DNA from: Micromonospora noduli
GTDB lineage: Bacteria; Actinomycetota; Actinomycetes; Mycobacteriales; Micromonosporaceae
Length of the DNA stretch: 64,000 bases
Direction: 5' to 3'
Assembly: GCF_003264365.1 (NCBI RefSeq)
Contig: NZ_PYAK01000020.1
Span: 1 to 64,000, forward strand
Shown here: positions 27,597 to 47,199 of the stretch, in pieces
Position numbering within the stretch: the first letter of the stretch is position 1
Layout of the letters: every line of letters begins with the position of its first letter
Made by a program: the position numbers and the translations under genes
Notes under the pieces: generated by a model
The model's database searches: none
Told to the model about the DNA's origin: nothing
What the model saw: the letters and a program-made list of their open reading frames with translations, nothing else

Positions 27597-28955
27597 TCAG
27601 CCGGTCAGGAGGATTCCGGTTAGGAGGACACCGTGGGCCAGGTTGAGGACTCCGTCGCAGCCGGGGTAGCCGACCCTCGCCAGACCGCCGGAGGCGTGCC
27701 GGCCGAACAGGTACGGGGCCAGGGAGTACGGGACGTCGGCGGTGACCGTCTCACCAGTCTCGATCTGGACGAAGTCCATCGACACCCGGTCGGTCGGCAG
27801 GTACTCCTGGAGGATGGCGCCGCCCTGGTCGACGGCGGCCCGCACACCGTCGGCCCAGTCCGCCGCGCTCAGTTCCGGGCCGAGCAGCACACCGTGCCCG
27901 GCCGAACCGTCGGCCGGCTTCGCCACCAGCGTGGCCTGCTCGGCGAGGGCCCGGTCGAGCACCTCGGCGGTCAACGGCACCGTGTACGGCACGTGCCGGC
28001 GGATCAGTGCCTGGTCGTCGGCGGGGAGCCCGTCCACGTCCTCCCACAGCCAACCGAACGTGGTCTTGTTGCCGAGCAGCCAGGCCGCCGCCGACACGAA
28101 CATCGGTAGGGTGCCGGCGGCGAGGGCCACGGCCACCGCGTCCAGGCCGGCGGTCGGGGTGACCCGGTTGGGCACGAACAACCGGAACAGCGCGTCGACC
28201 GGTTCACCGTCGACGACCAGGCGGTTGTCGGCGTCCACTGTGGCGGTGGCGACCGGGGCGATGACCAGGTCGATGCCGAAGTCCCGGGCCCGTACGGCGA
28301 GGGGGTCGAGGATCCGAATGAACGTCTGCGGGTCGTCGAGGCCCGGGTAGTCGCCGTCGAAGTCCATCAGCAGCGCCACCCGGGCGCCCTCGGGCAGCCG
28401 CAGCTCCTCGCGGATCGCCACGAACCGCTGGTCCAGCAGCGACGGCGCGGCCCGCACCGGCAGGTCGTCGAGGATGCCGTGCTCCCGGTAGAGGCCCGCG
28501 TACCGCTGGACGACGGTGTCGGCGTCGAACCCGCCGCCGAGGCTGCTGTCGATGTTGTACTCGACGAACTTCGGCACCCCGGCGGAGAAGATCACGTCCG
28601 GGCGGTACGCGGCCAGCAGCGCCTCGGTCAGCGGCTCGGCCTCGTCCAGCAGCCGGGTCTCCCCCGCCGGTACGCCGAGCAGCCGACGCAGCTCACCGGC
28701 GGTGCCGGCCCGCCGACGGCAGGCGTCGAGGATGAGCTGGGCGAGCCGGTCGCAGACCTCGTTGAGTTCGCGCCAGGCGTCGGCGGTGAGCACCGGGGGG
28801 CGGGCCAACCGCCACTGCTTGTTGTAGGTGGCCCGGCCGTGGAACACCTGCTCCCAGGCAGCCGCCCCACTGGCCACCATGGCCCGTCGGCCAGACTCCG
28901 GCAGGTCGGTCCAGGCCCGGTCGGCCGCCGGCCACGGATAGTTCGGGTCGATCAT
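27597..28955 (-). CDS. ATP-grasp-like enzyme, last gene of the arylglycine/polyketide operon
   Basis: A 452-residue protein whose C-terminal third looks like an ATP-grasp fold: VAKPADGSAGHGVLLG (nucleotide-binding loop with Lys) and AILQEYLP, with an earlier FVEYNIDSSLGGG. ATP-grasp enzymes join a carboxylate to an amine or thiol through an acyl phosphate. Its position at the end of a 12-gene operon holding hmaS suggests amide formation with an aryl acid or amino acid, but that is inference and I do not recognise a characterised relative. ATG at 28955 overlaps the E1beta stop (ATGA). A longer upstream frame lacks homology. Confidence 0.7.
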   Translation of the reverse strand: MIDPNYPWPAADRAWTDLPESGRRAMVASGAAAWEQVFHGRATYNKQWRLARPPVLTADAWRELNEVCDRLAQLILDACRRRAGTAGELRRLLGVPAGETRLLDEAEPLTEALLAAYRPDVIFSAGVPKFVEYNIDSSLGGGFDADTVVQRYAGLYREHGILDDLPVRAAPSLLDQRFVAIREELRLPEGARVALLMDFDGDYPGLDDPQTFIRILDPLAVRARDFGIDLVIAPVATATVDADNRLVVDGEPVDALFRLFVPNRVTPTAGLDAVAVALAAGTLPMFVSAAAWLLGNKTTFGWLWEDVDGLPADDQALIRRHVPYTVPLTAEVLDRALAEQATLVAKPADGSAGHGVLLGPELSAADWADGVRAAVDQGGAILQEYLPTDRVSMDFVQIETGETVTADVPYSLAPYLFGRHASGGLARVGYPGCDGVLNLAHGVLLTGILLTG

Positions 28956-29929
28956 GGTCCGTCCTTCACTGTCAGGTGGATGGCGGTGGCGAGCTGGTCC
29001 CGGCCGGGCTGGACGGCCCGGTCCAGTGCGGGGGCGAACGGCAGCACCGCCCCGTCCGGGCGGGTGACCCTGCGCGGCGGGGCGAGCAGCCGGACCCGCT
29101 CCACCACGCTCGCGATGATCTCGGCGGCCATCCCGCAGGAACGGTTGCCGTCGTCGAACACCACGAGGCGTCCGGTGCGGGCCACCGACTCGGTGAGACC
29201 GTCGATGTCGAACGGATACAGGGTGCGCGGGTCGAACACCTCCACCGAGACCTGGTCGGCCAACTCCTCGGCGACGGCGAGCGCGTCGTGCACCAGGTGC
29301 CCGATCGCGACCACTGTCACGTCCTCGCCGAAGCGGTGGATCCGGCCCCGGCCCAGCGGCACCGGCGCCAGGTCGTCGACGTCGTCCCGCACGTCCATCG
29401 CGCCGGCCGGCGCGAACACCACCACCGGGTCGTCGTGGCGGATCGCGGTGACCAGCAGCCCGTACGCGTCGGCCGGGGTGGCCGGCACGACGGTGACCAC
29501 GCCGACGTGGGCGAAGAGGCTGTACGGGTGGTCGGAGTGCTGCCCGGCCCACCCGGTACGCGAACCGGAGCCGGGCACCAGGTAGGTGACGGGAACGCGG
29601 CACTGCCCGCCGGTCATCAGCGGGAACTTGTGCGCATGGTTGACGATCTGCTCGAAGACCAGGAACAGCAGCGACGGGATCTGGAACTCGATCACCGGCC
29701 GCAGCCCGGCCAGCGCCGCCCCGGTGGCGAAACTGGTGAACGCCTGCTCGGACAGGGGGGTGTCGCGGACCCGTTCGGTGCCGAACCGCTTGGCCAGGCC
29801 GGTGGTCACCAGCGACGCCCCGACCTGGACGTCCTCGCCGAGAAGAAACACCGCATCGTCGCGAGCCAACTCGTCGCCGAGGGCCCGGGTCAGTGCGCGG
29901 CGGTACGACAGTCGGGGCACCTCAGCCAC
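28952..29929 (-). CDS. TPP-dependent 2-oxoacid dehydrogenase E1 beta-like subunit (no E2 partner)
   Basis: A 325-residue transketolase-fold subunit resembling E1beta of acetoin/pyruvate-type dehydrogenases: LLGEDVQVGASLVTTGLAKRFG, DTPLSEQAFTSFATGAALAG, EFQIPSLLFLVFEQI. It pairs with the upstream E1alpha (8-base overlap). Unlike the bkd operon at 5.5-9.0 kb no lipoyl E2 is encoded nearby. The pair might decarboxylate a pathway 2-oxo acid (for example 4-hydroxybenzoylformate) and pass the acyl group to an ACP or another acceptor. That is a hypothesis. Confidence 0.87.
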   Translation of the reverse strand: MAEVPRLSYRRALTRALGDELARDDAVFLLGEDVQVGASLVTTGLAKRFGTERVRDTPLSEQAFTSFATGAALAGLRPVIEFQIPSLLFLVFEQIVNHAHKFPLMTGGQCRVPVTYLVPGSGSRTGWAGQHSDHPYSLFAHVGVVTVVPATPADAYGLLVTAIRHDDPVVVFAPAGAMDVRDDVDDLAPVPLGRGRIHRFGEDVTVVAIGHLVHDALAVAEELADQVSVEVFDPRTLYPFDIDGLTESVARTGRLVVFDDGNRSCGMAAEIIASVVERVRLLAPPRRVTRPDGAVLPFAPALDRAVQPGRDQLATAIHLTVKDGP

Positions 29930-30896
29930 CTCCGGTGCGGGCGGCCAGGCCGCTGGCGTACAGGTAGGTCAACGCGTCGGCCGGGTCGGGTTCCGGGCTG
30001 TTCAGGGCGAACCGCACCGCCTCGTCGAGGGTCGCCTCGACCTCGGCGTCCACGGCGGCGCGGTCGGTGTCGGTGAGGCGTTCGCCCTGGATGCGCACGG
30101 GGTCTCGGGCCCGACCACGGCTCACCTCGTCGGGTGGGCGGTAGTCGTCGAGGCGTACCGCGTGTTCGAAGGTGTGGTGGACGTCGAAGCGGTAGGTCCG
30201 GGCCTCGATCAGCTCAGGGCCGCCGCCGGCGCGCATCCGGTCGACGGCGGCGCGCGCGGCGACGCGTACCGTCTCGGGGTCCTGGCCGTCGACCTGGACG
30301 GCCGGGATGTCGAACGCGGCGGCCCGGCCGGCGATGCTGCCGGCCACCGCGCCGGCGACCGGCATGGTGGTGGCGTAACCGTTGTTCTCGCAGACGAACA
30401 GCACCGGCACCCGCCACAGGGCGGCCAGGTTGAACGCCTCCAGCAGCATCCCCTCGTTGACCGCGCCGTCGCCGAAGAAGCTCACCCCGACGGTGTCGCG
30501 GCCCCGGCGGCGGTGGGCCCAGACCGCGCCCGTGATGATCGCCCCGGAGGCGCCGACGATGGCGTTGGCGCCGAGCACACCGATGCTCAGGTCGGCGGCG
30601 TGCATCGAACCGCCCCGGCCGGCGTTGAGGCCGGTGACCCGGCCGCACAGCTCGGCGAGCATCCGGGCCGGGTCGGCCCCGCGGGCCAGGACGTGCCCGT
30701 GCCCGCGGTGGGTGCCGGCGAGCACGTCGTCGGCGTCCAGCGCGGCGCAGACGCCGGCGGCGATCCCCTCCTGACCGAGGTACGGGTGGATGCCGCCGAC
30801 GATCTGCCCGCCGTGGACCAGCTCCACCGCCCGTTCCTCGAACCGGCGGATCAGCCGGACCGTGCGGTAGAGCCGGACCGGGTCGGCGTCGGTCAC
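29922..30896 (-). CDS. TPP-dependent 2-oxoacid dehydrogenase E1 alpha-like subunit
   Basis: A 324-residue E1alpha-type protein. The TPP motif is [22 protein letters not shown]...[31 protein letters not shown] and [10 protein letters not shown] match the acetoin/pyruvate-type subfamily rather than the branched-chain type. The GTG at 30896 overlaps the stop of the DUF3050 gene (GTGA); the longer upstream frame is antisense noise. It works with the beta subunit encoded just downstream. Confidence 0.88.
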
Positions 30897-31684
30897 GCGG
30901 GCCCCTTGATGGCGGCCAGGATGTCGTCCCAGAGCCGGGCCCGGGCGGCGAGGGCGGTGTTGACCGTGTCGGCGCACTCCTGCCACTTGCTGTCGTCGTC
31001 GCCGCACAGGTCGGCGAGCATCTGCATGGCCATCGGGGTGTGCTGTTCGCCGTCGACCTCGATGTGCCGGTGCAGGTAGTCGACGAAGGTGTGCAGCCGG
31101 TTGCTGTGCTCGTTGACCGTGACGACCTGGGTGAACATGTCCGGGATCAGGTCCTCCCGGCCGAAGGCGAAGGCCGCCGCCTGGCAGTGCACCGGGGTGG
31201 ACTCGATGATGTGCCAGGTGGTCGCGGCGAACCTCGCCGACGCGGCCGGCACCCCGGCCTCGGCGAGCGCCTCGGTGACCGGTCGGCCGGCGCGCAGCAG
31301 GTCGACCAGCGCGTTCACCGCCGTGGTGTCCGCGCCGGCCTCGGCCATGCCCTGCACGTACAGCTCGAAGTGGCTGATGTAGCCGCCGCCCAGCTCGTCG
31401 CTCTCCTCGACCATGACGATGTCGTTGATGAGGCGGCGGCTGCCGGTCGGGCCGGTCGGGATCCACGGCACTGTGACGCAGGTCAGTTGCCGTTGCAGCG
31501 ACTTCAGCAGGGACATGAAGTCCCAGACCGCGAAGACGTGGTGCTGCATGAAGGTGACCAGCGCATCGTGGGTGTCGAGGTTGGCGTAGAGCGGGTGCTT
31601 GACCACGGCGTCGCGCCGGTCGGTCACCGCCTGCTCCAACCGTTCGATGCCCGGGTGCGTCCTACCCCAGTCGTACCGTGACAT
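30893..31684 (-). CDS. DUF3050 heme-oxygenase-like-fold protein (possible diiron oxygenase)
   Basis: A 263-residue all-helical protein of the DUF3050 family. Seen: [57 protein letters not shown] and [14 protein letters not shown]-like histidine/glutamate clusters ([12 protein letters not shown]) plus [21 protein letters not shown]. The fold is shared with heme-oxygenase-like diiron oxidases that act in natural-product pathways, and the His/Glu pattern is compatible with a diiron site. No DUF3050 reaction is known to me. It lies one base after the Fe/2OG oxygenase gene and overlaps E1alpha. Confidence 0.82.
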
Positions 31685-31685
31685 G

Positions 31686-32615
31686 TCAGCCTCCCTGCTG
31701 GGCGCGGTGGCGCCAGATGACCGGGCAGTACTCGGGGTCCGCGTAGTCCGGCCGCCCGTCGTGGGTGCGGCGGACCAGCACGTCGTGGTTGTACGCGGCG
31801 AGCGTGCCGTCGGAGAGCGGATACTCCCGCCAGGCGTTGTCGCCGTCCTGCAGGTGCAGTGAGATCGCCTGTCGGGGGCGACCGCTGACGTTGGGGCCGC
31901 TGCCGTGGTAGGTGCGGCAGTGGTGGAAGCTCACGTGTCCCTTGGGGATCACCATCGGGATCTTGCGGATCTCCGCGCCGTTGTACGCGGCGTTCTCGGC
32001 CAGCATCTCCTCCAGCTGGCTGCGGTCCCGGTCGGCGAAGTGCCGCACCACTGTGTCGTCGGCGCCGATCTCCTTCCACCGGTGCGAACCGTCGACCATC
32101 GTGATGGTGCCCATCTCCTCCCCGCAGTCGTGGAAGGGGATGAACGCGGTGAGCATCTTCTCCGACGACGAGGACGCCCAGTAGTGCTTGTCGAAGTGCC
32201 AGGGCACGATGTTGCTGGGCTCGCCGGAGATCGGCGGCTTGTAGATCAGCGTGGACTGGAAGACCCGGATCTCGTCGGCCTGGGCGAGCCGGGCGGCGAC
32301 CGCGCCGAGCAGCGGCTTGCGCAGGATCGCGCCGAGCCCGTCGTGCTCGTGGTGGACGTAGTCGTTGTGTCGCTGCACCGGGCCCAAGGACTGCTCCCAG
32401 TAGGCCAGCTTCGGTGGGCGTACCGGCAGCCGCCGGTCCCGCTCCCCGTCGTAGTAGCGCTGCGTGGCGGCGGCGAGGGCGTCCACCTCGTCGTCGGTGA
32501 ACACCTTTCCCGACAGGTACCAGCCGTGCTCGGCGTAGTGCCGCACGTCGTCGTCGGACGGCAGCAGCGCCTGCTCCTCGGCGGTCAACGTCGACTCGTA
32601 GTCGGTCGCGGTCAC
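31686..32615 (-). CDS. Phytanoyl-CoA dioxygenase-type Fe(II)/2-oxoglutarate oxygenase
   Basis: A 309-residue PhyH-family oxygenase. The metal triad reads as His and Asp in [10 protein letters not shown] and the distal His in [10 protein letters not shown], with the 2-oxoglutarate Arg following in [11 protein letters not shown]. It could hydroxylate or halogen-independently modify a carrier-bound or free intermediate. The GTG at 32615 has AAGGAGG at ideal spacing. It is separated from hmaS by a 55-base repeat-like spacer and from the DUF3050 gene by one base. Confidence 0.86.
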
Positions 32616-32670: not shown

Positions 32671-33762
32671 TCACGCCCCCACCCCCTGTGGTGTGGCCGC
32701 CACGGCGGCCAGTTCCCGTTCCTTGGCCTCGTAGAGCGCCTTGATGTTGCCGCTGCCGAAGCCCCGCGCGCCGCGTCGCTCGATCAGCTCCAGGAAGAGC
32801 GTGCGACGCACGTGCATCGACTCGGCGAAGATCTGCAAGAGCTGGCCGTCGTGGTCGGAGTCGACGAGCACACCCAGCTCGCGCAGCCGGTGCAGCGGGG
32901 CGTCGATCCGACCGACCCGCGCCTCCAGGGCGTCGTAGTAGCTGGCGGGGGTGCCGGCGAAACGCACGCCGCGCCGGCCCAGGGCCTCGACCGCGCCGAC
33001 GATGTCGTCGGTGCGCAGCCCCAGGTGCTGCACTCCCCCGCCGGCGTGCTGGTCAAGGAACGCGTCGATCTGCCCGGGCCGCCGGGTGCGGTCCGGTTCG
33101 AGCAGCACCACTGTGACCCGCCCGGAGGGACTCTGCACCACCTTGGAGTTCATTCCCTGCCCGTCGACCTCGATGTACTCCTCGAAGATCTGCGCGAAGT
33201 CGAACAGCGCCTCAAAGTGCCGGACCGTCTCGTCGAGTTGGCCGGGCGGCACGCAGACCGCCAGGTGGTCGATCTCGGCGAGCACCGGCGGGTGGTCGTC
33301 CGTCGTGGACACCGCAGCGGTGATGGCGCCGGGCAGAAACGCGCCCCCCTCGCCGCGGCGCTGCACCAGCCGGTGCCGCACGTCGGCGAAGCCGTCCACC
33401 TCGGCGATCACCACCTCGGCGTCCGCGCCGGTGCGGGTGGTCGGCGGCGTCACCCCGGTCGCGCCCCGGCTCAGCAACTCGGCGTACGCGGCCGACACGT
33501 CGTCGACCTCGACAGCAACGACAGCGATGCCGTCACCGTGGCGTTGCACGTACCGCGACGCCGGATGCTCGGCGCTCAGCCCGGAGGTGAGCAGCAACCG
33601 GATGTCGCCGTGGCAGAGCAGCAGCGAGCGCTGCCCCGCCAGGCCGGTCTCCGGACCACCCTGGCCACAGATCTCGAAGCCGACGGCGGTGCTGAAGTAG
33701 AAGGCCGCCTGTCGGGCGTCCCCCACGTAGAGTTCGATGTGGTCGATACCACGGATGTCCAT
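32671..33762 (-). CDS. hmaS: 4-hydroxymandelate synthase (4-HPP dioxygenase family)
   Basis: A 363-residue two-VOC-domain Fe(II) enzyme. The metal ligands fit His in IDHLAVCV, His in VQHLGLRT and Glu in FLELIER. The C-terminal block QLLQIFAESMHVRRTLFLELIERRGARGFG is split from plant/bacterial HPPD (which usually has QIFTKPVxxRPT) and resembles hydroxymandelate synthases, as do MNSKVVQSPSGRVTV and EPDRTRRPGQIDAFL. The enzyme turns 4-hydroxyphenylpyruvate into 4-hydroxymandelate, the first step to hydroxyphenylglycine. ATG at 33762 follows AGGGGG. Catabolic HPPD is the less likely alternative since no homogentisate genes are near. Confidence 0.85.
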   Translation of the reverse strand: MDIRGIDHIELYVGDARQAAFYFSTAVGFEICGQGGPETGLAGQRSLLLCHGDIRLLLTSGLSAEHPASRYVQRHGDGIAVVAVEVDDVSAAYAELLSRGATGVTPPTTRTGADAEVVIAEVDGFADVRHRLVQRRGEGGAFLPGAITAAVSTTDDHPPVLAEIDHLAVCVPPGQLDETVRHFEALFDFAQIFEEYIEVDGQGMNSKVVQSPSGRVTVVLLEPDRTRRPGQIDAFLDQHAGGGVQHLGLRTDDIVGAVEALGRRGVRFAGTPASYYDALEARVGRIDAPLHRLRELGVLVDSDHDGQLLQIFAESMHVRRTLFLELIERRGARGFGSGNIKALYEAKERELAAVAATPQGVGA

Positions 33763-33837
33763 GTCCCCTGAAACCCTTCCCACCCGATTCCCCCTGTGTT
33801 GCCGTCCGGGCACACCCCGCCCGGGATGCCGCCTCGA

Positions 33838-35076
33838 TCACCCCCTCGGCTCGGCGACGCGGGCCAGCAGCAGGCTCACGTTCTGGCCGCCGAACCCGAA
33901 CGAGTTGGTGACCGCGTACTCCAGGTCGGCCTTTCGGGGCGTGCCACGGATGTGGTCCGCCGGGCAGGCCGGATCCGGATCGTCGAGGTGGTACGTCGGC
34001 GGCAGCAACCCCCGACCGAGCGCCAACGCGGTGGCCGCCGCCTCCAGCACCCCGGAGGCACCGAGCAGGTGACCGGTGAGCGCCTTGGTGGAGCTGACCG
34101 GCACACCGCCGACGCCGAAGACGTCGGCCAGGGCGGTGGTCTCCGCGATGTCACCGAGCTTCGTGCCGGTGCCGTGCGCGTTGACGTAACCGACCGCCGC
34201 CGCCGGCACACCGGCACTGCGCAGCGCCCGGCGGATGCACGCCGCCGCGCCGGCGCCGTCCGGGCGGGGGGCGGTCGGGTGGTACGCGTCCGTCGTCGCG
34301 CCGTGGCCGGCCACCTCGGCGTACCCGGCGACGCCGCGCGCCGCCGCGTGCTCGGCGCGTTCGAGCACCAGCAGCGCGGCACCCTCGGACAGGACGAACC
34401 CGCTGCGCGAGGTGTCGAACGGGCGACTCGCCCGGCCCGGGTCGGTGCCGGCGCGCGCCAACGCCCGCGCGTTGCCGAACGTGTCGGCGAAGGTCGGGAA
34501 GAGCGGTGCCTCGCTGGCCCCGCAGAGCACCACGTCGACCTCTCCGGTCGTGATGAGCCGCACCCCGTCGGCGACCGCCTGGGCGCCGGAGGCGCAGGCG
34601 GTGCCGACCGACGAGCTGTAGCCGCGGATTCCGTGCGCGATGGCGATCCGCGCCGCCGGCATGTTCGGCAGGATCCCGGTGAGCAGGTACGGGCTGACCG
34701 CCGCCCGACCCCGGGCCGCCCGGGCCAGCACCTGCGACTCGAGGGTGGCCATCCCCCCGACCCCACCGACGATCACACCGATCCGATCCGGGTCGATGTC
34801 GCGGCCCACCTCGATGCCAGCGTCGGCGAGAGCGTCGGCGGCGGCGAGCAGGGCGAGGACGACGATCCGGTCCAGCACCCGGGTCTCCGGCCCGGACGCG
34901 ACCGTCCGCGGGTCGATGTCGGGCAGCAGGCCGGCAACGTCCAGCGACTCCCTGACCGGGTGGCCCTCGGGCGGGCGGGTCAGCCCGGACCGGCCGGTGG
35001 TCAGCGCGTCGAAGGTCTCCTCGACGCCCCGCCCGACCGGGGTGAACAGACCCATCCCCGTGATCAACGCGGTCAC
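33838..35076 (-). CDS. Beta-ketoacyl synthase, intact FabF/KSalpha type
   Basis: A 412-residue condensing enzyme with a complete Cys-His-His triad: Cys161 in GTACASG, His in VNAHGTGTKLGD, and His in STKALTGHLLGASG. It belongs to the FabF/KSalpha family and would extend an ACP-bound acyl chain. It is encoded with a second, altered KS, a KS fragment, two ACPs and an AMP-ligase. The GTG at 35076 overlaps the ligase stop codon. With the partner KS-like proteins it may form a heterodimer as in type II PKS. Confidence 0.9.
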   Translation of the reverse strand: MTALITGMGLFTPVGRGVEETFDALTTGRSGLTRPPEGHPVRESLDVAGLLPDIDPRTVASGPETRVLDRIVVLALLAAADALADAGIEVGRDIDPDRIGVIVGGVGGMATLESQVLARAARGRAAVSPYLLTGILPNMPAARIAIAHGIRGYSSSVGTACASGAQAVADGVRLITTGEVDVVLCGASEAPLFPTFADTFGNARALARAGTDPGRASRPFDTSRSGFVLSEGAALLVLERAEHAAARGVAGYAEVAGHGATTDAYHPTAPRPDGAGAAACIRRALRSAGVPAAAVGYVNAHGTGTKLGDIAETTALADVFGVGGVPVSSTKALTGHLLGASGVLEAAATALALGRGLLPPTYHLDDPDPACPADHIRGTPRKADLEYAVTNSFGFGGQNVSLLLARVAEPRG

Positions 35077-36689
35077 GAGCTGGCCTCGGTGAGGTAGCGC
35101 TCGCGCAGGACCACCTTGCGGACCTTGCCGGTCACGGTGACCGGGATGTCGGCGGAGCGCACCGGCACGACCCGGCGCAGCGTGGCGCCGACGTCCGGGC
35201 CGAGGGCGGCGCGGACCCGCTCGGTGCGGTCCTCGGCCTCGTCGGCGCCGGCGGCCAACTCCAGCAGCACGTCGGTGACGACCGCGCCGGCCTCGGCGAC
35301 GATCACCACAGTGCAGTCGGTGACGTCCGGGCAGGCGGCGAGGATGCGTTCCTCGGACAGCGCTGTGTAGAAGCGCCGCCCGTCACCGGCGTCGACCGAG
35401 TCCACCGCCCGGTCCAGGTGGTAGTAGCGGCCGTCGGTGTCGGCCCGGACCAGGTCACCGGTGAGGTACCAGCCGCGCTGGCGGAAGCGGTAGGTGGTGA
35501 CCGAGTCGTTCCAGTAACCCCGGAACAGCGACGGCGAGTCGATGCCCAGGAAACCCACCTCGCCGACCGGCACCGGCTCGCCGTCGGCGTCGAGCACCGC
35601 GACAGTGGCGAACTGGTACGGGCGGCCGATGCAGCGGCCGTACCGGTCGGTGTCGGCGCGGTGGGTGATGTGGAACATCGAGTGCCCCATCTCGCTGGAG
35701 CCCAGCCCGTCGATGAAGACCGAGCCGGGCACCTTTGCCACCCCGTCGCGGGTGATGGTGTCGCGCCAACCGACCGCGACGAGGCGACGGATGTGCGGCT
35801 CGTGCGAGGCGTCGCCGGTGTTGAACCACAGCCGCACCGAGTCCAGGTCGTACCCGGACAGGTCGAAGCGGGCCAACTCCGCCCAGGTGACCGAGAAACC
35901 GAACACCCCGTCGGGGCGCCAGCGTTGGATGGCGTCGAGCACCCGCTCGCCGCCCTGCTCGGAGAGCAGGAACATCTGCGCGCGGTTGCCCAGCGCCTGG
36001 TTGACCATCAGCACCGTGGCGGTGTGCGGTGCGGGCAGCGCGTTGAGGATCCGGGTGGTGCCCTGCGCCTGCGGCATGGTGAGCAGGTGCCGGGTGGCCG
36101 CGAAGAGGCTGGCGTGCGAGTGGAGCACCGCCTTGGGCACCCCTGTCGTCCCGGAGGTGTGGGTGATCACGATCGGGTCGTCCGGGTGGTGCCGGTAGTG
36201 CGCCGGGGCCGTGGCCGGGTCACCCGTGCCGGCCTGCGCAGGGGTACCGAGCACTGGTACGCCCAGGTCGTGCCCGGCCAGCGATGCGGTGTGCGCGTCG
36301 TCGGCCAGCACACCGACACCCCGTAGGCGACGGATGTACTCGGCGGCGATCTCCGGGCGGAGTTTGCCGTTCATCAGCGCCGGGATCGCCCCGAGCCGGG
36401 CCAGCGCCAGGAAGCTGAGCACCATGTCGGCGGCGGTGGAGGCCCAGACGGCGACCGGGTCGCGGGGGCGTACCCCCTGCTCGTGCAGCCAGGCGGCGCG
36501 GGCAGCGACCCGCTCGTCGAGCCGCCCCAGCGTCAGCGGCGTTTCGGCCGGGTGCCCGTCGACGGCGGTGTCGAAGGTCAGGCCAGGCCCGTCCGGGTCG
36601 GCGCCGTGCGCCAGCACCCGGGCCAGGACGTTGCCCGCACCCAGCTCGGTGTCGGCGGCCAGTGCGCCGCGCAGTCCCCGTGTCCTCAT
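35073..36689 (-). CDS. AMP-dependent ligase/synthetase inside the ketosynthase operon
   Basis: A 538-residue ANL adenylating enzyme. The P-loop is ITHTSGTTGVPKAVLHSH, the A5 block GLGSSEMGHSMF, the A7/A8 region GWYLTGDLVRADTDGRYYHLDR, and the catalytic lysine near the C-terminus lies in VTVTGKVRKVVLRE. It probably activates an aryl or fatty acid as starter unit for the neighbouring ACPs or CoA. It is coupled on both sides by ATGA overlaps (KS fragment upstream, KS downstream). Confidence 0.88.
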   Translation of the reverse strand: MRTRGLRGALAADTELGAGNVLARVLAHGADPDGPGLTFDTAVDGHPAETPLTLGRLDERVAARAAWLHEQGVRPRDPVAVWASTAADMVLSFLALARLGAIPALMNGKLRPEIAAEYIRRLRGVGVLADDAHTASLAGHDLGVPVLGTPAQAGTGDPATAPAHYRHHPDDPIVITHTSGTTGVPKAVLHSHASLFAATRHLLTMPQAQGTTRILNALPAPHTATVLMVNQALGNRAQMFLLSEQGGERVLDAIQRWRPDGVFGFSVTWAELARFDLSGYDLDSVRLWFNTGDASHEPHIRRLVAVGWRDTITRDGVAKVPGSVFIDGLGSSEMGHSMFHITHRADTDRYGRCIGRPYQFATVAVLDADGEPVPVGEVGFLGIDSPSLFRGYWNDSVTTYRFRQRGWYLTGDLVRADTDGRYYHLDRAVDSVDAGDGRRFYTALSEERILAACPDVTDCTVVIVAEAGAVVTDVLLELAAGADEAEDRTERVRAALGPDVGATLRRVVPVRSADIPVTVTGKVRKVVLRERYLTEASS

Positions 36690-37273
36690 GGTCGTGCTCC
36701 TCCCCCCAGCAGCACCGCGACCGCCTCGGTCGGCTTCTCGGGTGCCTGTTCGATCAGGATCAGCAACACCTCGTCGGCGTCGCCGTCGTCGCGCAGCAGG
36801 TCGGCCTCGGCGACACCGTCGGTGTACGGGTCGCCGGTCGGGCTGAGGCAGACCACCGGGCCACGCAGGCCCCAGCGGGCCGCGAGGTGCCCGGCGACGC
36901 TGTTGGGCACGGACTGGAAAAAGAACAGTGGGCCGATCCGCCCGCCGGCCTCGACGGTGGCCCGTACGTGCTGGGCGCTGGCGAGATCACCGCTGGCGCT
37001 GACCAGCACGATCCCCGTCCGCACCCCGGCGGGCACTCCCGCCGACCCGTACCCCCGTCGCAGACACCGTTCCGCGACGGCCACCACCACCGGCGCGAAG
37101 TCCGAGTGCACGAACCCCGGCACCCCCGCCGCGCCGCCGCCGTCCCCACCCTCAGGCCACCAGGCCCGAGCCCTCTCCCCCGGCGATCTTGCGGTTTCGG
37201 TCGTCGTTTCGCGTGGTTGGTCGGATTCGTCGGGACAGGAGGTGCAAGATCGCGGGGAGTTGGGGGCGGTCAT
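36686..37273 (-). CDS. Short beta-ketoacyl synthase-like protein (N-terminal domain only)
   Basis: Up to 195 residues. The part from about residue 51 (VPGFVHSDFAPVVVAVAERCL) through FFFQSVPNSVAGHLAARWGLRGPVVCLSP resembles the short KS-like proteins (Ketoacyl-synt_2 type) found in aryl-polyene and related type II clusters. It has no catalytic His domain and no C-terminal half. The ATG at 37273 couples by ATGA to the upstream KS, but the first 40 codons are low-complexity and contain an inverted repeat (37183-37253); a GTG at 37123 could be the true start, giving 145 residues. Confidence 0.7.
   Translation of the reverse strand: MTAPNSPRSCTSCPDESDQPRETTTETARSPGERARAWWPEGGDGGGAAGVPGFVHSDFAPVVVAVAERCLRRGYGSAGVPAGVRTGIVLVSASGDLASAQHVRATVEAGGRIGPLFFFQSVPNSVAGHLAARWGLRGPVVCLSPTGDPYTDGVAEADLLRDDGDADEVLLILIEQAPEKPTEAVAVLLGGGARP
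37183..37253. repeat. Inverted repeat in the 5' part of the KS-like fragment gene
   Basis: GCGATCTTGC (37183-37192) and its exact complement (37244-37253) flank a 51-base AT-richer core. It looks like an intergenic REP-type insertion that either extends the N-terminus of the KS-like fragment or lies in its leader. Confidence 0.5.
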
Positions 37274-38409
37274 CCGACGCCGACCAGGAGAGCGGTGTTG
37301 GCGCCGCCGAATGCGGCGTTGAGGGTCAGGGCGTGGGTTGCCGTCGTCCTTCGCGGGCCATCCTTGACGACGTTCAGAGGGCAGGACTCGTCCTGGGCCA
37401 GCCAGCCGGCGTTGACCGGCAGTTCGCCGTGGCGCAGCGCGAGCGCGGTGACCACCAGTTCGAGCAACCCGGACGCCTCCAGCGCGTGCCCGTGCACCGA
37501 CTTCGTGGAGCTGACCGGGACCCGGTCGGCATGCCCGCCGAGGGCCCGGCGCAGGGCTGCCGCCTCGGCGGTGTCGCTCTGCGCGGTACCGGTGGCGTTG
37601 GCGTTGACGTAGCCGACGGACTGCGGTGGCAGCCCGGCCCGGCGCAGCGCGCCGCCGACCGCGCGGGCCAACCCGGTGCCGCCGGGCTCCGGCTGGCAGG
37701 GATGGAACGCGTCACCGGCCCGCCCCCAACCGACCACTGTGGCCACCGGGTCGACGCCGCGTCGCCGGCCGGTGCTCGATTCCAGCACCACCGCGGCCAC
37801 GCCGTCGCCCAGCAGCAACCCCCGGCGGCCGGCGCTGAACGGGCGGACCGCCCCGTCGACCGCGAGGGCGCGACCGGCGTCGAAGAGCGCGAACTGGTCC
37901 GGCTCCACCAGGTAGCCGGCCGCTACCACCACACGCTCGACATCACCCCGGGTGATCCGGGCGGCGGCGTCGGCCACCGCCGTGCTCGCGGACACGCAGG
38001 CGCTGGTGTAGACCCGGGTGTGACCCGAGAGTCCACAACGGGCGGCGAGTTGGCCGGCGAGCACGGCTGGCGCCGGACCGAGGGCCGGGCCTGCACCGGC
38101 GACCGGGCCCGCGCCGAGGGTCGGGCCGCCGTGCACGGCGAGCAGCAGCGCGCACCCGGCGCGCTGCGCGCGGTCCAGGCCGGCCGCCCGGCAGGCCCCG
38201 TCGATCGCGGCGGCCAACTCGTCGGGGAGGGTGGCGACCTCGGGCACTGTGGCCGCCACTGTGACCCGGCGGGCGGCGGTGTCGAATCGGTCCACCGGGC
38301 CGAACGCCGGCACCCCGGCCAGCGCACCGGCGAGCTGCGCGTCGGCGCCCCGTCCCAGGGCGCTGACCGCGTACACGCCGGTGAGCTGGGCGACGCGCGC
38401 CTCAACCAT
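37270..38409 (-). CDS. Divergent beta-ketoacyl synthase with Cys-Asn-His triad
   Basis: A 379-residue KS-family protein. The nucleophile is present (Cys138 in YTSACVSAST) and so is the last histidine (His308 in STKSVHGHALEASG), but the middle motif reads VNANATGT (Asn271) where active enzymes have VNAHGTGT. The codon is AAC. Loss of this histidine usually impairs malonyl decarboxylation, so the protein may act as a chain-length-factor-like partner, an acyltransferase or a non-condensing KS. ATG at 38409 overlaps the ACP stop by 8 bases. Confidence 0.88.
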   Translation of the reverse strand: MVEARVAQLTGVYAVSALGRGADAQLAGALAGVPAFGPVDRFDTAARRVTVAATVPEVATLPDELAAAIDGACRAAGLDRAQRAGCALLLAVHGGPTLGAGPVAGAGPALGPAPAVLAGQLAARCGLSGHTRVYTSACVSASTAVADAAARITRGDVERVVVAAGYLVEPDQFALFDAGRALAVDGAVRPFSAGRRGLLLGDGVAAVVLESSTGRRRGVDPVATVVGWGRAGDAFHPCQPEPGGTGLARAVGGALRRAGLPPQSVGYVNANATGTAQSDTAEAAALRRALGGHADRVPVSSTKSVHGHALEASGLLELVVTALALRHGELPVNAGWLAQDESCPLNVVKDGPRRTTATHALTLNAAFGGANTALLVGVG

Positions 38410-38647
38410 CTGCGGAGGCGGTCAGCGACGCCCGGAACACCACCAGGGCGTCGTCGACGGTGCGGATGCCGGCCAGTTCGTCGTCGGTGAGGTCCAGCCG
38501 GCGTTCGTAGCGCTGCTCGACGAGGTGCACCAGCCAGGCAAGCTCCATCGAGCCGATCCGGTCGGACACCTCGGCAGCCGGTTTCGCGGTGAGTTCGGCG
38601 AGCATGGTCATCAGGTCAGCTCGCCCCAGATCGGGCTGACCGCTCAT
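38402..38647 (-). CDS. Acyl carrier protein
   Basis: An 81-residue carrier protein with the phosphopantetheine serine in DRIGSMELAWL (the usual DSxxL appears as GSMEL). It follows a second ACP gene (TGATG overlap) and precedes the divergent KS. Two different ACPs in one operon suggest separate carriers for starter and extender or for two branches. Confidence 0.82.
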   Translation of the reverse strand: MSGQPDLGRADLMTMLAELTAKPAAEVSDRIGSMELAWLVHLVEQRYERRLDLTDDELAGIRTVDDALVVFRASLTASADG

Positions 38648-38913
38648 CAGCCTTTGTCGCTCGTCGCCTCGGTGACGCGATTGGCGACCATGGTGGTGAA
38701 CTCGCCGACCGTCATGAGGGCCAGCTGCTCCGACTCGTCGTCGGCGAACGTCACGCCGTACCGGTCCTCGACCCGCACGGACAGGTCGGCCAGAGCGAGC
38801 GACTCCAGGTCGACGCCGGAGGGGCCGAGCGTGGTGTCGTCGTCGAGCCCCTCGACGTCGTAGTTCATGTCGGCGAGCTGCTCGACGACGAAGGCGCGGA
38901 CCTCGGCTCTCAT
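38647..38913 (-). CDS. Acyl carrier protein, first gene of the 12-gene operon
   Basis: An 88-residue carrier protein, phosphopantetheine serine in GVDLESLALADL, with the acidic helix II surface typical of type II ACPs. The ATG at 38913 starts only 15 bases from the divergent PPTase start, so the promoter must overlap coding sequence or the mRNA must be leaderless. A much longer open frame upstream is antisense to the PPTase gene and is not used. Confidence 0.84.
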   Translation of the reverse strand: MRAEVRAFVVEQLADMNYDVEGLDDDTTLGPSGVDLESLALADLSVRVEDRYGVTFADDESEQLALMTVGEFTTMVANRVTEATSDKG

Positions 38914-38928
38914 GGATACCCTCTCTGC

Positions 38929-39615
38929 GTGGCTCAGCTGACGGTGCCCGGTCGGGACACCGCCTACGTGTGGGTCGGCCGCGACACCGGCGGTCAGCCG
39001 GATCCGGCCGCTGTGCTGGTGCGGCGGGCGGGTGCTCTGCTGCTCGGCCGCCCGGAGACCGAGTTGGTGCTGACGCACGACCGCGAGGGACGGCCGGTCG
39101 TCCGGGTCGACGAGGTGACCGGGTCGGTGGAGGTGGCGGTCAGCGTCAGCCGCACCGCCGGGCTGGTGGCGGTCGCCGCCCGTCGGGCCGGCGCGGTCGG
39201 GGTGGACGTGGAGCGCATCCGCCCGCTGCCGGCGCTCGCGCTGGCCCACCGCTGGTTCCCGCCCGCCGAGCTGGCCTGGTTGGGCGATCGGCCCGAGGCC
39301 GGCCGGACGGTGGACTTCCTGCGGCTGTGGACCGCCAAGGAGGCGGTCGGCAAGGCGCTCGGGCGGGGGTTGCGCGACGGCGGGCTGCACCGGTTGATGC
39401 CGCCGCCGGGGCTGCCGTTGCGGCCGGTGCCCGGCGACGAACTCCTGCGGGTCGGTCACCCACGGCTGGGCGGGGACCTCGTCCTGGCGGTCGCAGTGCG
39501 GGCGAGCGCGCAGGTCGACGTCGAGGTGGTGCAGCGGCCCGGTCACGGGGTGACCGCCGAGCGCAGCGCGTCGGTCGAGCGGACCAGCTTGCCGGTGGTG
39601 GTACGGGGCAACTGA
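38929..39615 (+). CDS. 4'-phosphopantetheinyl transferase (Sfp type)
   Basis: A 228-residue PPTase that converts apo-ACPs to holo form. Mg/CoA motifs are GVDVERIRP (residues about 84-92) and WTAKEAVGKALG (about 128-139). The GTG at 38929 is the first possible start; a GTG five codons later is an alternative, and neither has a strong ribosome site. Its 3' end overlaps the opposing AMP-ligase gene by 73 bases. Placement beside two ACP genes fits activation of these carriers. Confidence 0.88.
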   Translation: MAQLTVPGRDTAYVWVGRDTGGQPDPAAVLVRRAGALLLGRPETELVLTHDREGRPVVRVDEVTGSVEVAVSVSRTAGLVAVAARRAGAVGVDVERIRPLPALALAHRWFPPAELAWLGDRPEAGRTVDFLRLWTAKEAVGKALGRGLRDGGLHRLMPPPGLPLRPVPGDELLRVGHPRLGGDLVLAVAVRASAQVDVEVVQRPGHGVTAERSASVERTSLPVVVRGN

Positions 39616-40931
39616 TCGAGCAGGTGCAGCGCCCGGGGCCGTTTGTAGCCGGCCAACCGCTCGGCGAGGAGCTTGTCCAGCGTCTCCTCCGACAGCGGGC
39701 CGTCGGGTTGGACGTACGCGGTGATGCCGTCGTCCCAGACCACCACCGCGGCGGCAACCCCGGTCAGCTCGGCGACGGTGGCCTCCACCTCGGTCAGGTC
39801 GACCTTCATCCCGCCGACGGAGACCTGCGAGTCGAGTCGACCGCGCACCGTGACCAGGCCGGTGTCCTCATCGACGGTGCCGGCGTCGCGGGTGTGCAGC
39901 CAGCCGTCGGACCAGCGGGTCGGGTCGCTCAGGCCGACGTACGGCGACGCCGGGCAGGACACCCACAGCTCACCGCCGGACTCGCGGACCTGGATCCCGG
40001 GCGCGGGGGCGATCGACGGTCGGTGCGACCCGTACAGGTCGGTGCCGATCACCCCGACCTCGGTCATCCCGTACATGTTGCCCAGCGGCACCCCGTACCG
40101 GTCGGTGAACGCCCGGGCGACGGCGGCCGGCACCAGCTCGCCGCCGGTGGTCATCCGCCGCAGCTGCGGCAGTGGCCCGGCCGGGCGGGTGGAGGCGAGC
40201 AGTCCGATGTGGAACGGGACACCGAGCACGGTGGCCGGTGTGGTGCCGGCGCTGATCGCGGCCAGCACGGCGTCGCCGCTGAGCCGTTCCGGCGGCACCA
40301 GCTCGACCCCGGCGTGCAGCCCGTAGAGCAGGCCGCCGACCAGGCCGAGCACGTGCACCATCGAGGGCAGCAGGATGATCCGCTCGCCGGGCAGCGCCAC
40401 CCCGTCGATCCGGGTGTAGCGGTGCACCTCGGCGACCAGGTCGGCGGCGGTGCGGCCGATCACCTTGGACGGGCCGGTGGAGCCGGAGCTGAGCTGGATC
40501 ACGGCATGGCCGCTGACCGCCGGGCGGTCGGCGTACCGGGTGACGCCCTCGGTGACGTCGACGAAGATCTTCAGCGCGCCGCCACCGGTCCGCACCGGAG
40601 CGACCACCACCTGCGGGGTCAACCGGGCCAGCGCCCGGTCCACCTCGTGGTCGGTGAGCCGGTGGTCGAGCAGGATCGCCTGCCCCCCGGCGCGCCAGGT
40701 GGCGAGCAGGTTCACCACGTACGCCAGCGACGGTGGCAACCGCAGCGCCGCGGCGCCACCGGGGCGCAGTCCGGCGGTGGTCAACCGGTCCTGCGCGTCG
40801 GTCACCAGCCGGTGCAGTGTGGCTCGGTCGACGGGCTCGGGCAAACGGAGACAAACGTCGGTCGGGTGGCCGGCGAAAAGGACTTCGTCCACCCAGCCGG
40901 GGTCGGTCGCCGTAGGATCTTCTGCCGTCAC
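39543..40931 (-). CDS. AMP-dependent ligase (aryl/acyl-acid activating)
   Basis: A 462-residue ANL-family enzyme, shorter than most. The P-loop is LSSGSTGPSKVIGR, the A5 block NMYGMTEVGVIG, the A7-A8 stretch HTRDAGTVDEDTGLVTVRGRLDSQVSVGGMKVDLTEVE, and the catalytic lysine is in TTTGKLVRS. The short N-terminal part resembles ligases for small aryl acids. It is the third adenylating enzyme in the region. The GTG at 40931 follows a 290-base region without other genes. Confidence 0.86.
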   Translation of the reverse strand: MTAEDPTATDPGWVDEVLFAGHPTDVCLRLPEPVDRATLHRLVTDAQDRLTTAGLRPGGAAALRLPPSLAYVVNLLATWRAGGQAILLDHRLTDHEVDRALARLTPQVVVAPVRTGGGALKIFVDVTEGVTRYADRPAVSGHAVIQLSSGSTGPSKVIGRTAADLVAEVHRYTRIDGVALPGERIILLPSMVHVLGLVGGLLYGLHAGVELVPPERLSGDAVLAAISAGTTPATVLGVPFHIGLLASTRPAGPLPQLRRMTTGGELVPAAVARAFTDRYGVPLGNMYGMTEVGVIGTDLYGSHRPSIAPAPGIQVRESGGELWVSCPASPYVGLSDPTRWSDGWLHTRDAGTVDEDTGLVTVRGRLDSQVSVGGMKVDLTEVEATVAELTGVAAAVVVWDDGITAYVQPDGPLSEETLDKLLAERLAGYKRPRALHLLDQLPRTTTGKLVRSTDALRSAVTP

Positions 40932-41217
40932 TGCCGTTCACCGCCCAGCATGAAAGAGGGCGAATCCGCCCATCACGTACGCTTGTCGGGGTGCTGCGGG
41001 GAACCATACGACGCCCACAAGGCCATTGCTAGATGCGAATGGATGGATCAAAAGCAGCGGCCAGCCGGATTGCCGACAGCCCGTTCGGCGGACAGAATCA
41101 GGCGGGCGACTTGGCGGAGCGTCACCGAGGTATGACCCCTCGTACCACCGTCGCGCGGTGCCAGCCGGACGGCCGATGGCGTCGCGCTCACCGGGTGAGC
41201 CAGACGATGCGCGCGCG

Positions 41218-41658
41218 CTAGCTCGGTTTGATGCTGGCGAGTTGCACCAGCAGCTGAACCAGCCGGTACGCCTCGGCGACGTCGGCGGCGTGGAAGGCGA
41301 CCGTCCGGCCGCCGCCGACGCGGGTCACACCCGGCACCAGAGTTGCGAGGTCGACCATGTACGGGCCGTACAGGTCGACCTCGACGTCCAACGGCCCGGC
41401 CATCTTCGGCGGCGGAATCGAGGCGCGCCGGGCGATCGCGTCGGCGGCGGCGCGGCGCAGCCGCTCCCGTGCCTCCTGCGGATGCAGGGCCACCGCGGCG
41501 GCCTGCCCCAGGGTCTGCCTGACGGCGACGTTGAGGCCGATCTTCGCCCAGCGATCGTCCGGCCACCCGCACGTCGAGGATGGCGTCACGCAACGCCGCG
41601 CGCGAGGAGATCGTGCTCGTACAAGGAAATAGTGGCCTCCACCCGAGGGCGAGGCCAC
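41218..41658 (-). pseudogene. Remnant of an M55 D-aminopeptidase gene (C-terminal part)
   Basis: The frame ends with a stretch typical of the C-terminus of M55 (DppA-like) metallopeptidases: WAKIGLNVAVRQTLGQAAAVALHPQEARERL, then MAGPLDVEVDLYGPYMVDLATLVPGVTR and GRTVAFHAADVAEAYRLVQLLVQLASIKPS, stop TAG. The N-terminal half with the metal ligands is missing and the first ~33 residues of this frame do not fit the family. I read it as a truncated relic (real similarity about 41218-41560). Flanks 40932-41217 and 41590-41701 hold nothing else I can support. Confidence 0.65.
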
Positions 41659-41701
41659 TACATCCTGGATCGAGCGCGATCATCCAGGCCGGCGCAGAGC
41701 G

Positions 41702-42019
41702 TCAGGTCAGCGCCGGCGTCTGGGCGTGGATGTGGAAGCGCAGCGAACGGGCGTCGGTGAAGCACTCCCGCATCGGGCGTACGAGGTCCCGGTGCTCCGG
41801 GCTGCGTTCCCACTCTTCGAAGTCGGCCAGGCTCGCCCACTCGCTGGTGATCAACCACTGCTCCGGGTCGGTCGACGACCGGCACACCTGGTCGACCAGG
41901 TGCCCCGGCACACCGCTGGCGACGAGGTGCCGCACCTCCTCGTACGCGGCGAGGAACTGCTCGGTGCGCGGCACCGGCACCCGTACCAGAAAGACCACCC
42001 GGGCCCGTTTGTCGCTCAT
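41702..42019 (-). CDS. Antibiotic biosynthesis monooxygenase (ABM) family protein
   Basis: A 105-residue ferredoxin-like alpha+beta-barrel protein of the cofactor-free monooxygenase type (VVFLVRVPVPRTEQFLAAYEEVRHLV, EWASLADFEEWERSPEHRDLVRPM). In aromatic type II PKS loci such proteins oxidise ring carbons to quinones. ATG at 42019 overlaps the KSbeta stop (ATGA). It is the last gene of the pigment-type operon. Spore-pigment clusters carry a similar protein near KS/CLF. Confidence 0.82.
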   Translation of the reverse strand: MSDKRARVVFLVRVPVPRTEQFLAAYEEVRHLVASGVPGHLVDQVCRSSTDPEQWLITSEWASLADFEEWERSPEHRDLVRPMRECFTDARSLRFHIHAQTPALT

Positions 42020-43272
42020 GACGCCTCTCCCCTCATCGGCGCGGCCCCGCGCAGGACCAGCGCGCTGTTGAACCCGTCGAAGCCCCGCGCGCAGATCAGG
42101 GCGAGTCGGCTTCGCGGGCGGCGGTGCTCGCGTAGGAAGTCCAGGTCGCAGCCCTCGGCCACCTCGTCCGGTCCCGCCGACGCGGGCAACGTGTCGTGGG
42201 CGAAGGCGAGCAGCGCGGTGGCCACGTCCAACGCCGAGCCGCCCTGGTACGCCCGACCGGTCAGCGGCTTCTGCGTGGTCACCGGGGGCGGCCGGTCGGC
42301 GAACACGGCCCGCAGCGCCTCGGCCTCGCTGCGGTCGTAGCGGTGCACGCCGAGCGCGTCGGGCAGCACCACGTCGATTCCGGCGGCGGCGACGCCCGCC
42401 CGGTCCAGGGCCAGCCGCATCGCCCGTGCGTACTGGGCTGGGTCGCCGCTGCTCTCCGCCGTGGTGTGCGCGGCGTCGTGGGTGGAGCCCCACCCGCTCA
42501 CCTCGCCGTAGACACGGGCGCCCCGGGCCAGGGCGTGCCCCAACTCCTCCACCACGAACACGGCTCCGCCCTCGGCCGGCAGGTAACCGCTGGCCGTGGC
42601 GTCGAACGGCCGGTACGCCCGCTCCGGGTCGGCGACGTCACTGAGCAGCCCCGAGCGCAGCTGGCAGGCGAGCGCGTACGGACTCAACGGGCACTCGGTG
42701 GCCCCGGCGATCACGACCGGGGTGCCGCGGCGCACCGCGCGGGCGGCGTGCGCCAGGCTGTCCAGCCCGCCGGCCGACTCCGCGACCAGCACCCCGCTCG
42801 GGCCCTTGAACTGGTGGTGGATGGAGAGCTGCCCGACGCTGGCCGCGTAGAACCAGGCGATCGACTGGTACGCGCCGACCGTCCGCGACGTGCCGCCCCA
42901 CAGCCGTTGCAGTTCCCGCTGACCGAACAGGTTGCCCCCGGACGAACTGGCCAGGGTCACCGCGTAGCCGTACGGGTCGGGGGCCCGGTCGGGCAGGCCG
43001 GCGTCGGCCAGCGCCAGCCGGGTGGCGGCGAAGCCGAGGTGCGTCCACCTGTCGGTCTGCACCAACTGTCGGCTATCGGCGTAGGAGTCGGCGGTGAAGC
43101 CGGGCACCTCCCCGCCGAAGCGGGTCGGATAGCCGGCCGGGTCGAACAACGTGATCGGCCCGGTCCGGCGGGTGCCGGCGAGGACCGTGCGCCAGTGCGC
43201 GTCCGCGCCGATGCCGCTCGGTGCGACCACCCCGATGCCGGTCACCACGGCGCGAGCCACCTCCGCGCTCAC
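42016..43272 (-). CDS. Type II PKS chain length factor (KSbeta)
   Basis: A 418-residue KSbeta lacking the active-site cysteine: the equivalent motif is VAESAGGLDS, with Ser166 where most CLFs have Gln (EQAGGLD). The middle His motif is also lost (LPDALGVHRYD), as normal for CLF. It pairs with KSalpha and sets chain length. A 76-base spacer with a short repeat separates it from KSalpha instead of the usual overlap. GTG at 43272 is the start. Best viewed as part of a pentangular/spore-pigment PKS. Confidence 0.9.
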   Translation of the reverse strand: MSAEVARAVVTGIGVVAPSGIGADAHWRTVLAGTRRTGPITLFDPAGYPTRFGGEVPGFTADSYADSRQLVQTDRWTHLGFAATRLALADAGLPDRAPDPYGYAVTLASSSGGNLFGQRELQRLWGGTSRTVGAYQSIAWFYAASVGQLSIHHQFKGPSGVLVAESAGGLDSLAHAARAVRRGTPVVIAGATECPLSPYALACQLRSGLLSDVADPERAYRPFDATASGYLPAEGGAVFVVEELGHALARGARVYGEVSGWGSTHDAAHTTAESSGDPAQYARAMRLALDRAGVAAAGIDVVLPDALGVHRYDRSEAEALRAVFADRPPPVTTQKPLTGRAYQGGSALDVATALLAFAHDTLPASAGPDEVAEGCDLDFLREHRRPRSRLALICARGFDGFNSALVLRGAAPMRGEAS

Positions 43273-43348: not shown

Positions 43349-44619
43349 TCACGCCGCCACCGCGCCGAGCATCCGACGGAAGACCATCGCCGACTGGAAA
43401 CCGCCGAACCCGCTGCCCACCGAAAGGGCCACGTCCACCGGAACCTCCCGTGCCTCATTGGGTACGTAGTCCAGGTCGCACTCCGGGTCCCGGGTGCTCC
43501 AGTTCGCCGTCGGTGGCACCACACCGAACTCGATGGCGAGGGCGCACGCGGCCATCTCGATCGACCCGATCGCGCCGAGCGAGTGCCCGACCATCGACTT
43601 GATCGAGCTGATCGGTATCCGGTACGCGGCCTGGCCCAGCGCCCGCTTGAACGCGGCCGTCTCGTGTCGGTCGTTCTGCCGGGTGCCCGAGCCGTGCGCG
43701 CTGATGTAGGAGACCTGCTCGGGCAGGATCCGGCCCTGCCGGAGCGCGTCGGTGACGGCGAGGCCCATCTCCAGCCCGTCCGGCCGCAGCCCGGTCATGT
43801 GGAAGCCGTTGCTGCGGCTGGCGTAGCCGGCCACCTCGCAGTAGATGTGCGCTCCCCGCCGCCGGGCGTGCCCGGCCTCCTCCAGCACCAGCACCGCCCC
43901 GCCCTCGGCCAGCACGAACCCGTGCCGGTCAGCGTCGAACGGGCGGGAGGCGTGTGCCGGGTCGTCGTTGTCCGGGCTGGTCGCCTTGATCGCGTCGAAC
44001 GAGGCGACGGTGACCGGGGAAATCGGCGAGTCGGACGCACCGGCCAGCATCACGTCCGCCTCACCGTCCACGATCATCTGGTGGGCGTACCCGATGGCGT
44101 CGATGCCGGAGGTGCACCCGGTGGAGACCACCTGCGCCGGGCCGTGCAGCCCGTGCCGGCAGGCCACGTCCGCCGCGAGGCTGCTGGGCACCAACGCCTG
44201 ATAGAGGTACGGGCCACCGCGCGTCCCGTCCACCAGCCAGCGTCGGCCGTGCTCGCTCACCGTGACGTACTCCTGCTCCAACGCCATCGTGCCGCCCACC
44301 GCCGTGCCCAGCACCACCCCGGCCCGGTCCCGTTCCGCGTCGGTGAGCACCAACTGGGCATCGGCCACCGCCTCGACGGAGCAGGCCAGCGCGAACTGCA
44401 CGTACCGGTCGGCCCGCCGCAGTTCGGCCTCGCTGAGCCCCGCCGCGACCGGGTCGAAGTCGCACTCCGCCGCGATCTGCGACCGGAACGCCGACGGGTC
44501 GAAGAAACTGATCCGCCGGGTGGCGGTCCGCCCCTCGGTGATGGTCTTCCAGAAGCGGTCCCGGCTGGCGCCGCCCGGGGCGACCACCCCAATGCCGGTC
44601 ACCACCGTGCGGCGCCCGG

Positions 44620-44623
<4 letters not shown>
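43349..44623 (-). CDS. Type II PKS ketosynthase (KSalpha)
   Basis: A 424-residue KSalpha with full triad: Cys170 in STGCTSG, His in [11 protein letters not shown], His in [13 protein letters not shown]. It builds an aromatic polyketide chain together with KSbeta and the fused ACP. The sequence style ([39 protein letters not shown]) is that of spore-pigment and pentangular polyphenol KSs. ATG at 44623 overlaps the cupin stop by ATGA. Confidence 0.94.

Positions 44624-47199
<2,576 letters not shown>

Follow-up and report, generated by a model that had tools for sequence, protein, structure and literature searches.

The AmcF-AmcG heterodimer of cispentacin biosynthesis is described as carrying out one C2 elongation and a cyclisation, with AmcG named a cyclization factor, or CYF (PMC10698177). 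In ketosynthases (KSs), a kept Cys together with loss of the catalytic His of HGTGT is given as the sign of a KS0 (PMC4661987, PMC8302727). Art14KS4, from the trans-AT polyketide synthase (PKS) for aurantinin, has Asn at the first-His position and was proposed from its sequence to transthiolate and not to condense (PMC8302727). The Cys-Asn-His triad itself is not new, as it is already in print as a KS0 sign in Art14KS4, and the initial annotation of our locus was mistaken in setting this form apart from non-condensing KSs. As for other heterodimers, PqsBC is a FabH-like enzyme with an incomplete triad, whose C-C chemistry is described as aided by a group of the substrate itself (PMC4807248). 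Finally, malonyl decarboxylation is described as requiring both KS histidines (PMC2649909).

The window analysed here is a stretch of 64,000 nucleotides from Micromonospora noduli. It contains a free-standing KS with Asn at the first-His position, here termed the KS subunit, and a truncated KS-like partner, here termed CYF, within a larger cassette (Table 1).

Table 1. Features of the cassette and of the linked aromatic PKS in the window.
Feature	Position	Strand	Remark
Adenylate-forming ligase 1, proposed carrier-protein loader	39543..40931	-	
Acyl carrier protein (ACP), Ser in ESL motif	38647..38913	-	start codon inferred by eye; scanned as 38647-38886
Small acyl-carrier-like protein, 81 aa, Ser in GSM motif	38402..38647	-	no Pfam/NCBIfam match
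KS subunit, Cys138-Asn271-His308	37270..38409	-	FabF fold, shortened N-terminal half, AmcF-like
Truncated KS-like partner (CYF), 195 aa, CYF/AmcG-like	36686..37273	-	4-nt overlap with KS gene
Adenylate-forming ligase 2, AvaA6-diazotase-like, under the model's cut-off	35073..36689	-	
FabF-like KS, intact Cys-His-His	33838..35076	-	
4-Hydroxyphenylpyruvate dioxygenase / hydroxymandelate synthase (HPPD/HmaS) family protein	32671..33813	-	
PhyH-type oxygenase	31686..32615	-	
DUF3050 haem-oxygenase-like protein	30893..31684	-	
2-Oxoacid dehydrogenase E1 alpha-like	29922..30896	-	
2-Oxoacid dehydrogenase E1 beta-like	28952..29929	-	
KS-alpha, aromatic type II PKS, Cys-His-His	43349..44623	-	
Chain length factor, Ser-Asp-Arg at triad positions	42016..43272	-	
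Aromatic-PKS acyl carrier protein	45524..45790	-	

The KS subunit is encoded by an open reading frame (ORF) of 379 aa with an ATG start. The plus strand is also open across the gene, but the ORF there does not belong to those showing a coding-like pattern of G+C by codon position, and the KS homology lies on the minus strand. In the translation, Cys138 is found in SACVSA, Asn271 in VNANATGT and His308 in KSVHGHAL. The three HMMER alignments shown, all to solved FabF sequences, place them at the Cys, first His and second His of FabF, and the triad is therefore located as first annotated. The AlphaFold2 model, built from 32 aligned sequences, has a mean pLDDT of 93.3 and a predicted FabF fold, with TM-scores by query length of about 0.9 to FabF, the ishigamide KS and the actinorhodin KS.

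In terms of named families, AmcF is the one NCBIfam model, among those listed, that spans the KS subunit almost from end to end (NF058662, 137.3 bits); with a cut-off of 325 bits, the protein is not an AmcF member proper. Six relatives reached 157 to 223 bits with the same model. The FabF model TIGR03150 gave 215.5 bits over residues 116-376 only, below the equivalog cut-off of 493.75, and the presence of Cys138 sets the protein apart from the chain length factors. The KS0 sign is present: the Cys is kept and the catalytic His of HGTGT is gone. Eight KS-type proteins were found in the same genome (PF02801, E <= 1e-10), and the KS subunit alone has Asn, five being Cys-His-His and two lacking the triad like chain length factors. 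An intact KS nearby had also been claimed, and both the FabF-like KS and KS-alpha retain all three residues.

The KS gene is directly followed by the gene for the truncated partner, which is the gene order of the KS-CYF type. An in-frame CYF start overlapping the KS stop was found in 59 of the 61 loci examined. The CYF product matches Pfam Ketoacyl-synt_2, with a weak match to the NCBIfam model of AmcG (33 bits, cut-off 80). No Cys is conserved at the catalytic place, and Gln120 is invariant in 28 rows. Its predicted model has a pLDDT of 87.8, and the closest Foldseek structures are 7f28 and ApeC, the second-best, with TM-scores near 0.5. No AmcG members over the cut-off were found in 396 genomes and no AmcF members over the cut-off in 296. 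This partner gene, the likeness to AmcF-AmcG and the orthologues with Gln in place of the second His go beyond the initial annotation.

Homologues were gathered by a contig scan with six peptide patterns, one of them VGYVNANA, and by a genome search that kept only matches of 1e-50 or better. The scan gave 64 loci, with Micromonospora, Salinispora, Kribbella, Kitasatospora, Catellatospora, Dactylosporangium, Actinophytocola, Actinospica, Rhizocola and Lentzea among the genera. Matches at 1e-50 or better were present in 36 of 298 genomes of the order, 27 of them from the genus of the window, whose own genome is counted. A DNA pattern for the motif was so stringent that it did not pick up even the window.

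We found 88 unique homologues, counted as aligned proteins without the window and without matches below 150 bits, with L032/L034 standing for L070/L143/L144 (L denotes loci and G genomes). They comprise 70 Cys-Asn-His, 10 Cys-His-Gln and 7 Cys-His-His forms, plus one Asn form cut off before the second position; the 70:10:7 proportion leans to Asn forms and is no unbiased census, because one pattern held the Asn motif and the 1e-50 filter was applied. The Cys-Asn-His homologues go down to about 53% identity and encode the Asn with AAC (65) or AAT (5). The next residue is Ala in most Asn forms and Gly in L137, L138, L140 and L142. With 70 unique homologues carrying it, Asn271 is neither chance nor a sequencing error.

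None of the 87 homologues readable at both positions has lost both histidines, and the only substitutes are Asn at the first and Gln at the second. Because one His is always kept and only these two amides replace the other, the active site appears constrained and not decaying. In keeping with a catalytically dead structural subunit, similar to a chain length factor, KS and CYF belong to the faster-changing part of the cassette. We consider such a subunit very improbable: the Cys138 equivalent is present in 88 of 88 homologues, which also excludes a chain length factor or a decayed KS, the 32-row KS alignment shows no variation at Lys303 or in the FGG loop, and both chain length factors of the same genome lack all three residues.

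The cassette runs in the order ligase 1, ACP, ACP, KS, CYF, ligase 2, FabF-like KS, HPPD/HmaS-like, PhyH, DUF3050, E1 alpha and E1 beta. With some losses and shuffling, it recurs in distant genera with the Asn and Gln forms alike, which means that the triad has changed without a change of gene set. No published description of it was found in the open-licence literature, as judged by titles and the starts of abstracts.

The FabF-like KS was surveyed in 78 loci, and all 68 in which a match reached at least 55% identity have Cys-His-His, counting L146 and L147, for which the FabF-like KS had itself served as the query. The remaining 10 had no such match. Loci L051, L074, L094 and L101 end before the gene could appear. 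No FabF-like KS is present in the both-His loci L100, L135 and L141, although they are long enough to show it, nor above 44% identity in G215, the source of L141. The Asn loci L070, L143 and L144 are also long enough, yet contain no orthologue in the stretch; in G171 and G065, the sources of L143 and L144, the gene lies elsewhere (61 and 60% identity), beside E1 alpha, and the L070 protein is identical to L034 of G171. One-His forms of known neighbourhood thus have the orthologue either in the locus or elsewhere in the genomes G171 and G065. The both-His forms L134, L037/L136, L139 and L069 do have it.

We propose, with a probability of about 0.5, that the role of the KS-CYF heterodimer is to take up acyl chains and to transfer or cyclise them, with the intact FabF-like KS performing the condensation. 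This division of labour is the best reading because the KS subunit carries the KS0 sign and the cassette has an intact FabF-like KS. The KS subunit would be the larger partner of an AmcF-AmcG-like heterodimer that has turned KS0-like. Ligase 1 would load an acid onto the carrier protein, and the acyl group, or a chain built from it, would move to Cys138, which is kept along with Lys303 and the FGG loop. The neighbouring FabF-like KS, judging by its conservation, would carry out the decarboxylative condensation with malonyl. The KS-CYF pair may then hold the chain before passing it on or closing a ring, with His308 and the amide of Asn271 as the probable remaining hydrogen-bond donors. The partner or acyl-transfer role suggested at first is favoured here too, the loss of the first His with the Cys kept being the known KS0 sign and no novelty. 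Several points count against a split of roles. The gain of the FabF-like KS is a single event in the tree, so its link with the loss of His is weak, and the four both-His forms named above have this KS as well. AmcF-AmcG is described as condensing in addition to cyclising (PMC10698177), the KS subunit shows no distinct speeding-up in Asn lineages, and both-His L069 lies inside an Asn clade. The rule that both His are never lost, with amide-only substitutes, also fits a condensing enzyme.

Such an enzyme is the main alternative, possible if less probable. The KS subunit would still condense, with Asn271 replacing the first His as oxyanion-hole donor, and KS-CYF would elongate by C2 and cyclise like AmcF-AmcG, for which both activities are described (PMC10698177). 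The triad with Asn271 would mirror the Cys-His-Asn of KAS III and type III PKSs, and the Gln308 orthologues would be the unmirrored version. FabH-like enzymes are described as decarboxylating with His and Asn together (PMC4807248), and the amide-only pattern in the 87 readable homologues and the kept Lys303 and FGG loop point the same way. On the other side, Asn in place of the first His counts as a mark of KS0 (PMC8302727). The cassette, moreover, already has an intact KS. The H298Q mutant of Escherichia coli FabB is reportedly decarboxylation-deficient, which also counts against condensation; by that mutant name it was not found in the open-licence literature, among the matches listed. The same literature gave no assayed close homologue with Asn at the first-His position.

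KSs and thiolases share the thiolase fold, with the thiolase residues in the order Cys, Asn of NEAF and His of GHP. The pair might then make or break C-C bonds with no decarboxylation step, in the manner of a thiolase. The residue order Cys-Asn-His of the KS subunit is the one point in favour of this chemistry. We hold it very unlikely, as the best sequence matches are FabF-type and the Gln308 and both-His orthologues have much of the same cassette.

For the trees, 94 orthologues were reduced to 81 unique ones and 37 of the 81 (<85% identity) were kept, with L101 dropped as truncated. The main tree has 45 rows with the trait columns masked, and was rooted on the both-His rows with Thr at 306 (L100, L135 and L141), omitting all distant KS outgroups. 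In an earlier tree with such outgroups L100 and L135 fall outside as well; a second tree set omitted the chain length factor and L005. His306, two residues ahead of His308, is present in all tree rows except L066 and the three outgroup rows, where the residue is Val or Thr.

In the best tree, Asn appears in three places: a clade of 24 rows that includes the window, Kitasatospora L088/L091, and L099 together with L137, L138, L140 and L142. Forcing the Asn rows into one clade was rejected (p-AU 0.0003; 0.017 in another row set), for a test group chosen by state although the state columns were masked. The Gln forms make up one clade, weakly supported (75/73), and several deep branches have weak support. 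L069 is both-His within an Asn clade, so the Asn change can be undone. The fewest three-state changes were 6, 5 and 4 in three overlapping row sets whose trees differ in detail, in counts that do not distinguish gains from losses. The both-His outgroup makes it more probable than not that Asn was gained repeatedly. That the free-standing KS-CYF family more than once swapped exactly one His for an amide, Asn at the first position or Gln at the second, and so came to be dedicated to ring-closing or acyl transfer with a separate FabF-like KS extending, is a wider claim that we regard as rather unlikely.

In terms of rates, the median KS to FabF-like KS distance ratio is 1.71 for Micromonospora and Salinispora, 1.12 for other Asn forms and 1.46 for Gln forms, so measured against the FabF-like KS, the KS subunit does not change distinctly faster in lineages with Asn than in those with Gln. 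Apart from 271, only position 44 co-varies with Asn, weakly. A sign test of the mutual exclusion of Asn and Gln had too few independent pairs.

As for the product, the genes for the HPPD/HmaS-like protein, the E1 pair and the ligases suggest that a 2-oxo acid is converted to an acid, which the ACP would then receive. Ligase 2 has 3-aminoavenalumate diazotase AvaA6 as by far its best NCBIfam match (509 bits, cut-off 975; the next has 141 bits), a likeness that could indicate nitrite or N-N chemistry. A phosphopantetheinyl transferase gene (38929-39615, plus strand) lies between ligase 1 and the ACP and overlaps the end of ligase 1, an arrangement that recurs in many loci. No E2 or E3 gene was seen in the cassette beside the E1 pair; an annotated E2-type gene is present in L135. 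In Kitasatospora, genes for a lactate-dehydrogenase-type FMN enzyme and a PLP enzyme flank the cassette (L088 5215-7700, L099 3646-7786), and with the HmaS-like gene they recall what we take to be hydroxyphenylglycine routes. Region 41048-41683, flanked by ligase 1 and the ABM gene, has repeated matches in L040, L042, L076 and L085 and no Pfam match.

Among the named Micromonospora and Salinispora loci at least 15 kb long, 27 of 28 have the cassette linked to an aromatic PKS (KS-alpha of 70% identity or more); the one without it, L076, begins at the end of a contig. The link was found in 0 of 27 other loci, one of which (both-His L139, from G185) is of the genus of the window. A Salinispora survey describes one type II PKS as common to every strain (the context indicating S. 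arenicola) and regards it as the likely source of the black spore pigment (PMC12838356). The linked type II PKS is possibly this spore-pigment set.

If these readings are true, one orthologous enzyme offers a natural series of Cys-His-His, Cys-Asn-His and Cys-His-Gln, mostly within one conserved cassette, so that what each of the two KS histidines does could be tested without designed mutants. The cassette is also marked out in many actinomycete genera, joined in Micromonospora and Salinispora to the type II PKS that may make spore pigment. Should the CYF pair have given up condensation, the cyclising function of an AmcF-AmcG kind of enzyme would have been split from the elongating one.

Compared with known systems, two Kuenenia FabF paralogues of a ladderane study also have Asn at FabB position 298, but have lost Cys163 and His333 as well (PMC2649909). 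PqsBC is, like KS-CYF, a heterodimer with an incomplete triad; it belongs to the FabH family and has Cys-His with Val for Asn. ApeO-ApeC of the aryl polyenes (PDB 6qsp) has the same design of a KS with a truncated chain length factor, although ApeC, with a chain of 238 residues and from another pathway, matches CYF moderately (TM 0.54/0.45, 27% identity). The KS subunit resembles the KS0 Art14KS4 in keeping the Cys and the second His with the first His changed to Asn. KS0s are domains of type I modules, whereas the KS subunit is free-standing with a CYF partner and has relatives that lose the second His instead. Finally, AmcF-AmcG is described as condensing and cyclising (PMC10698177), while KS-CYF is known here from sequence alone and is accompanied by an extra FabF-like KS, oxygenases and an E1 pair. 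The two systems share a KS with a shortened N-terminal half, then a small truncated KS-like partner, with ligase and ACP genes adjoining.
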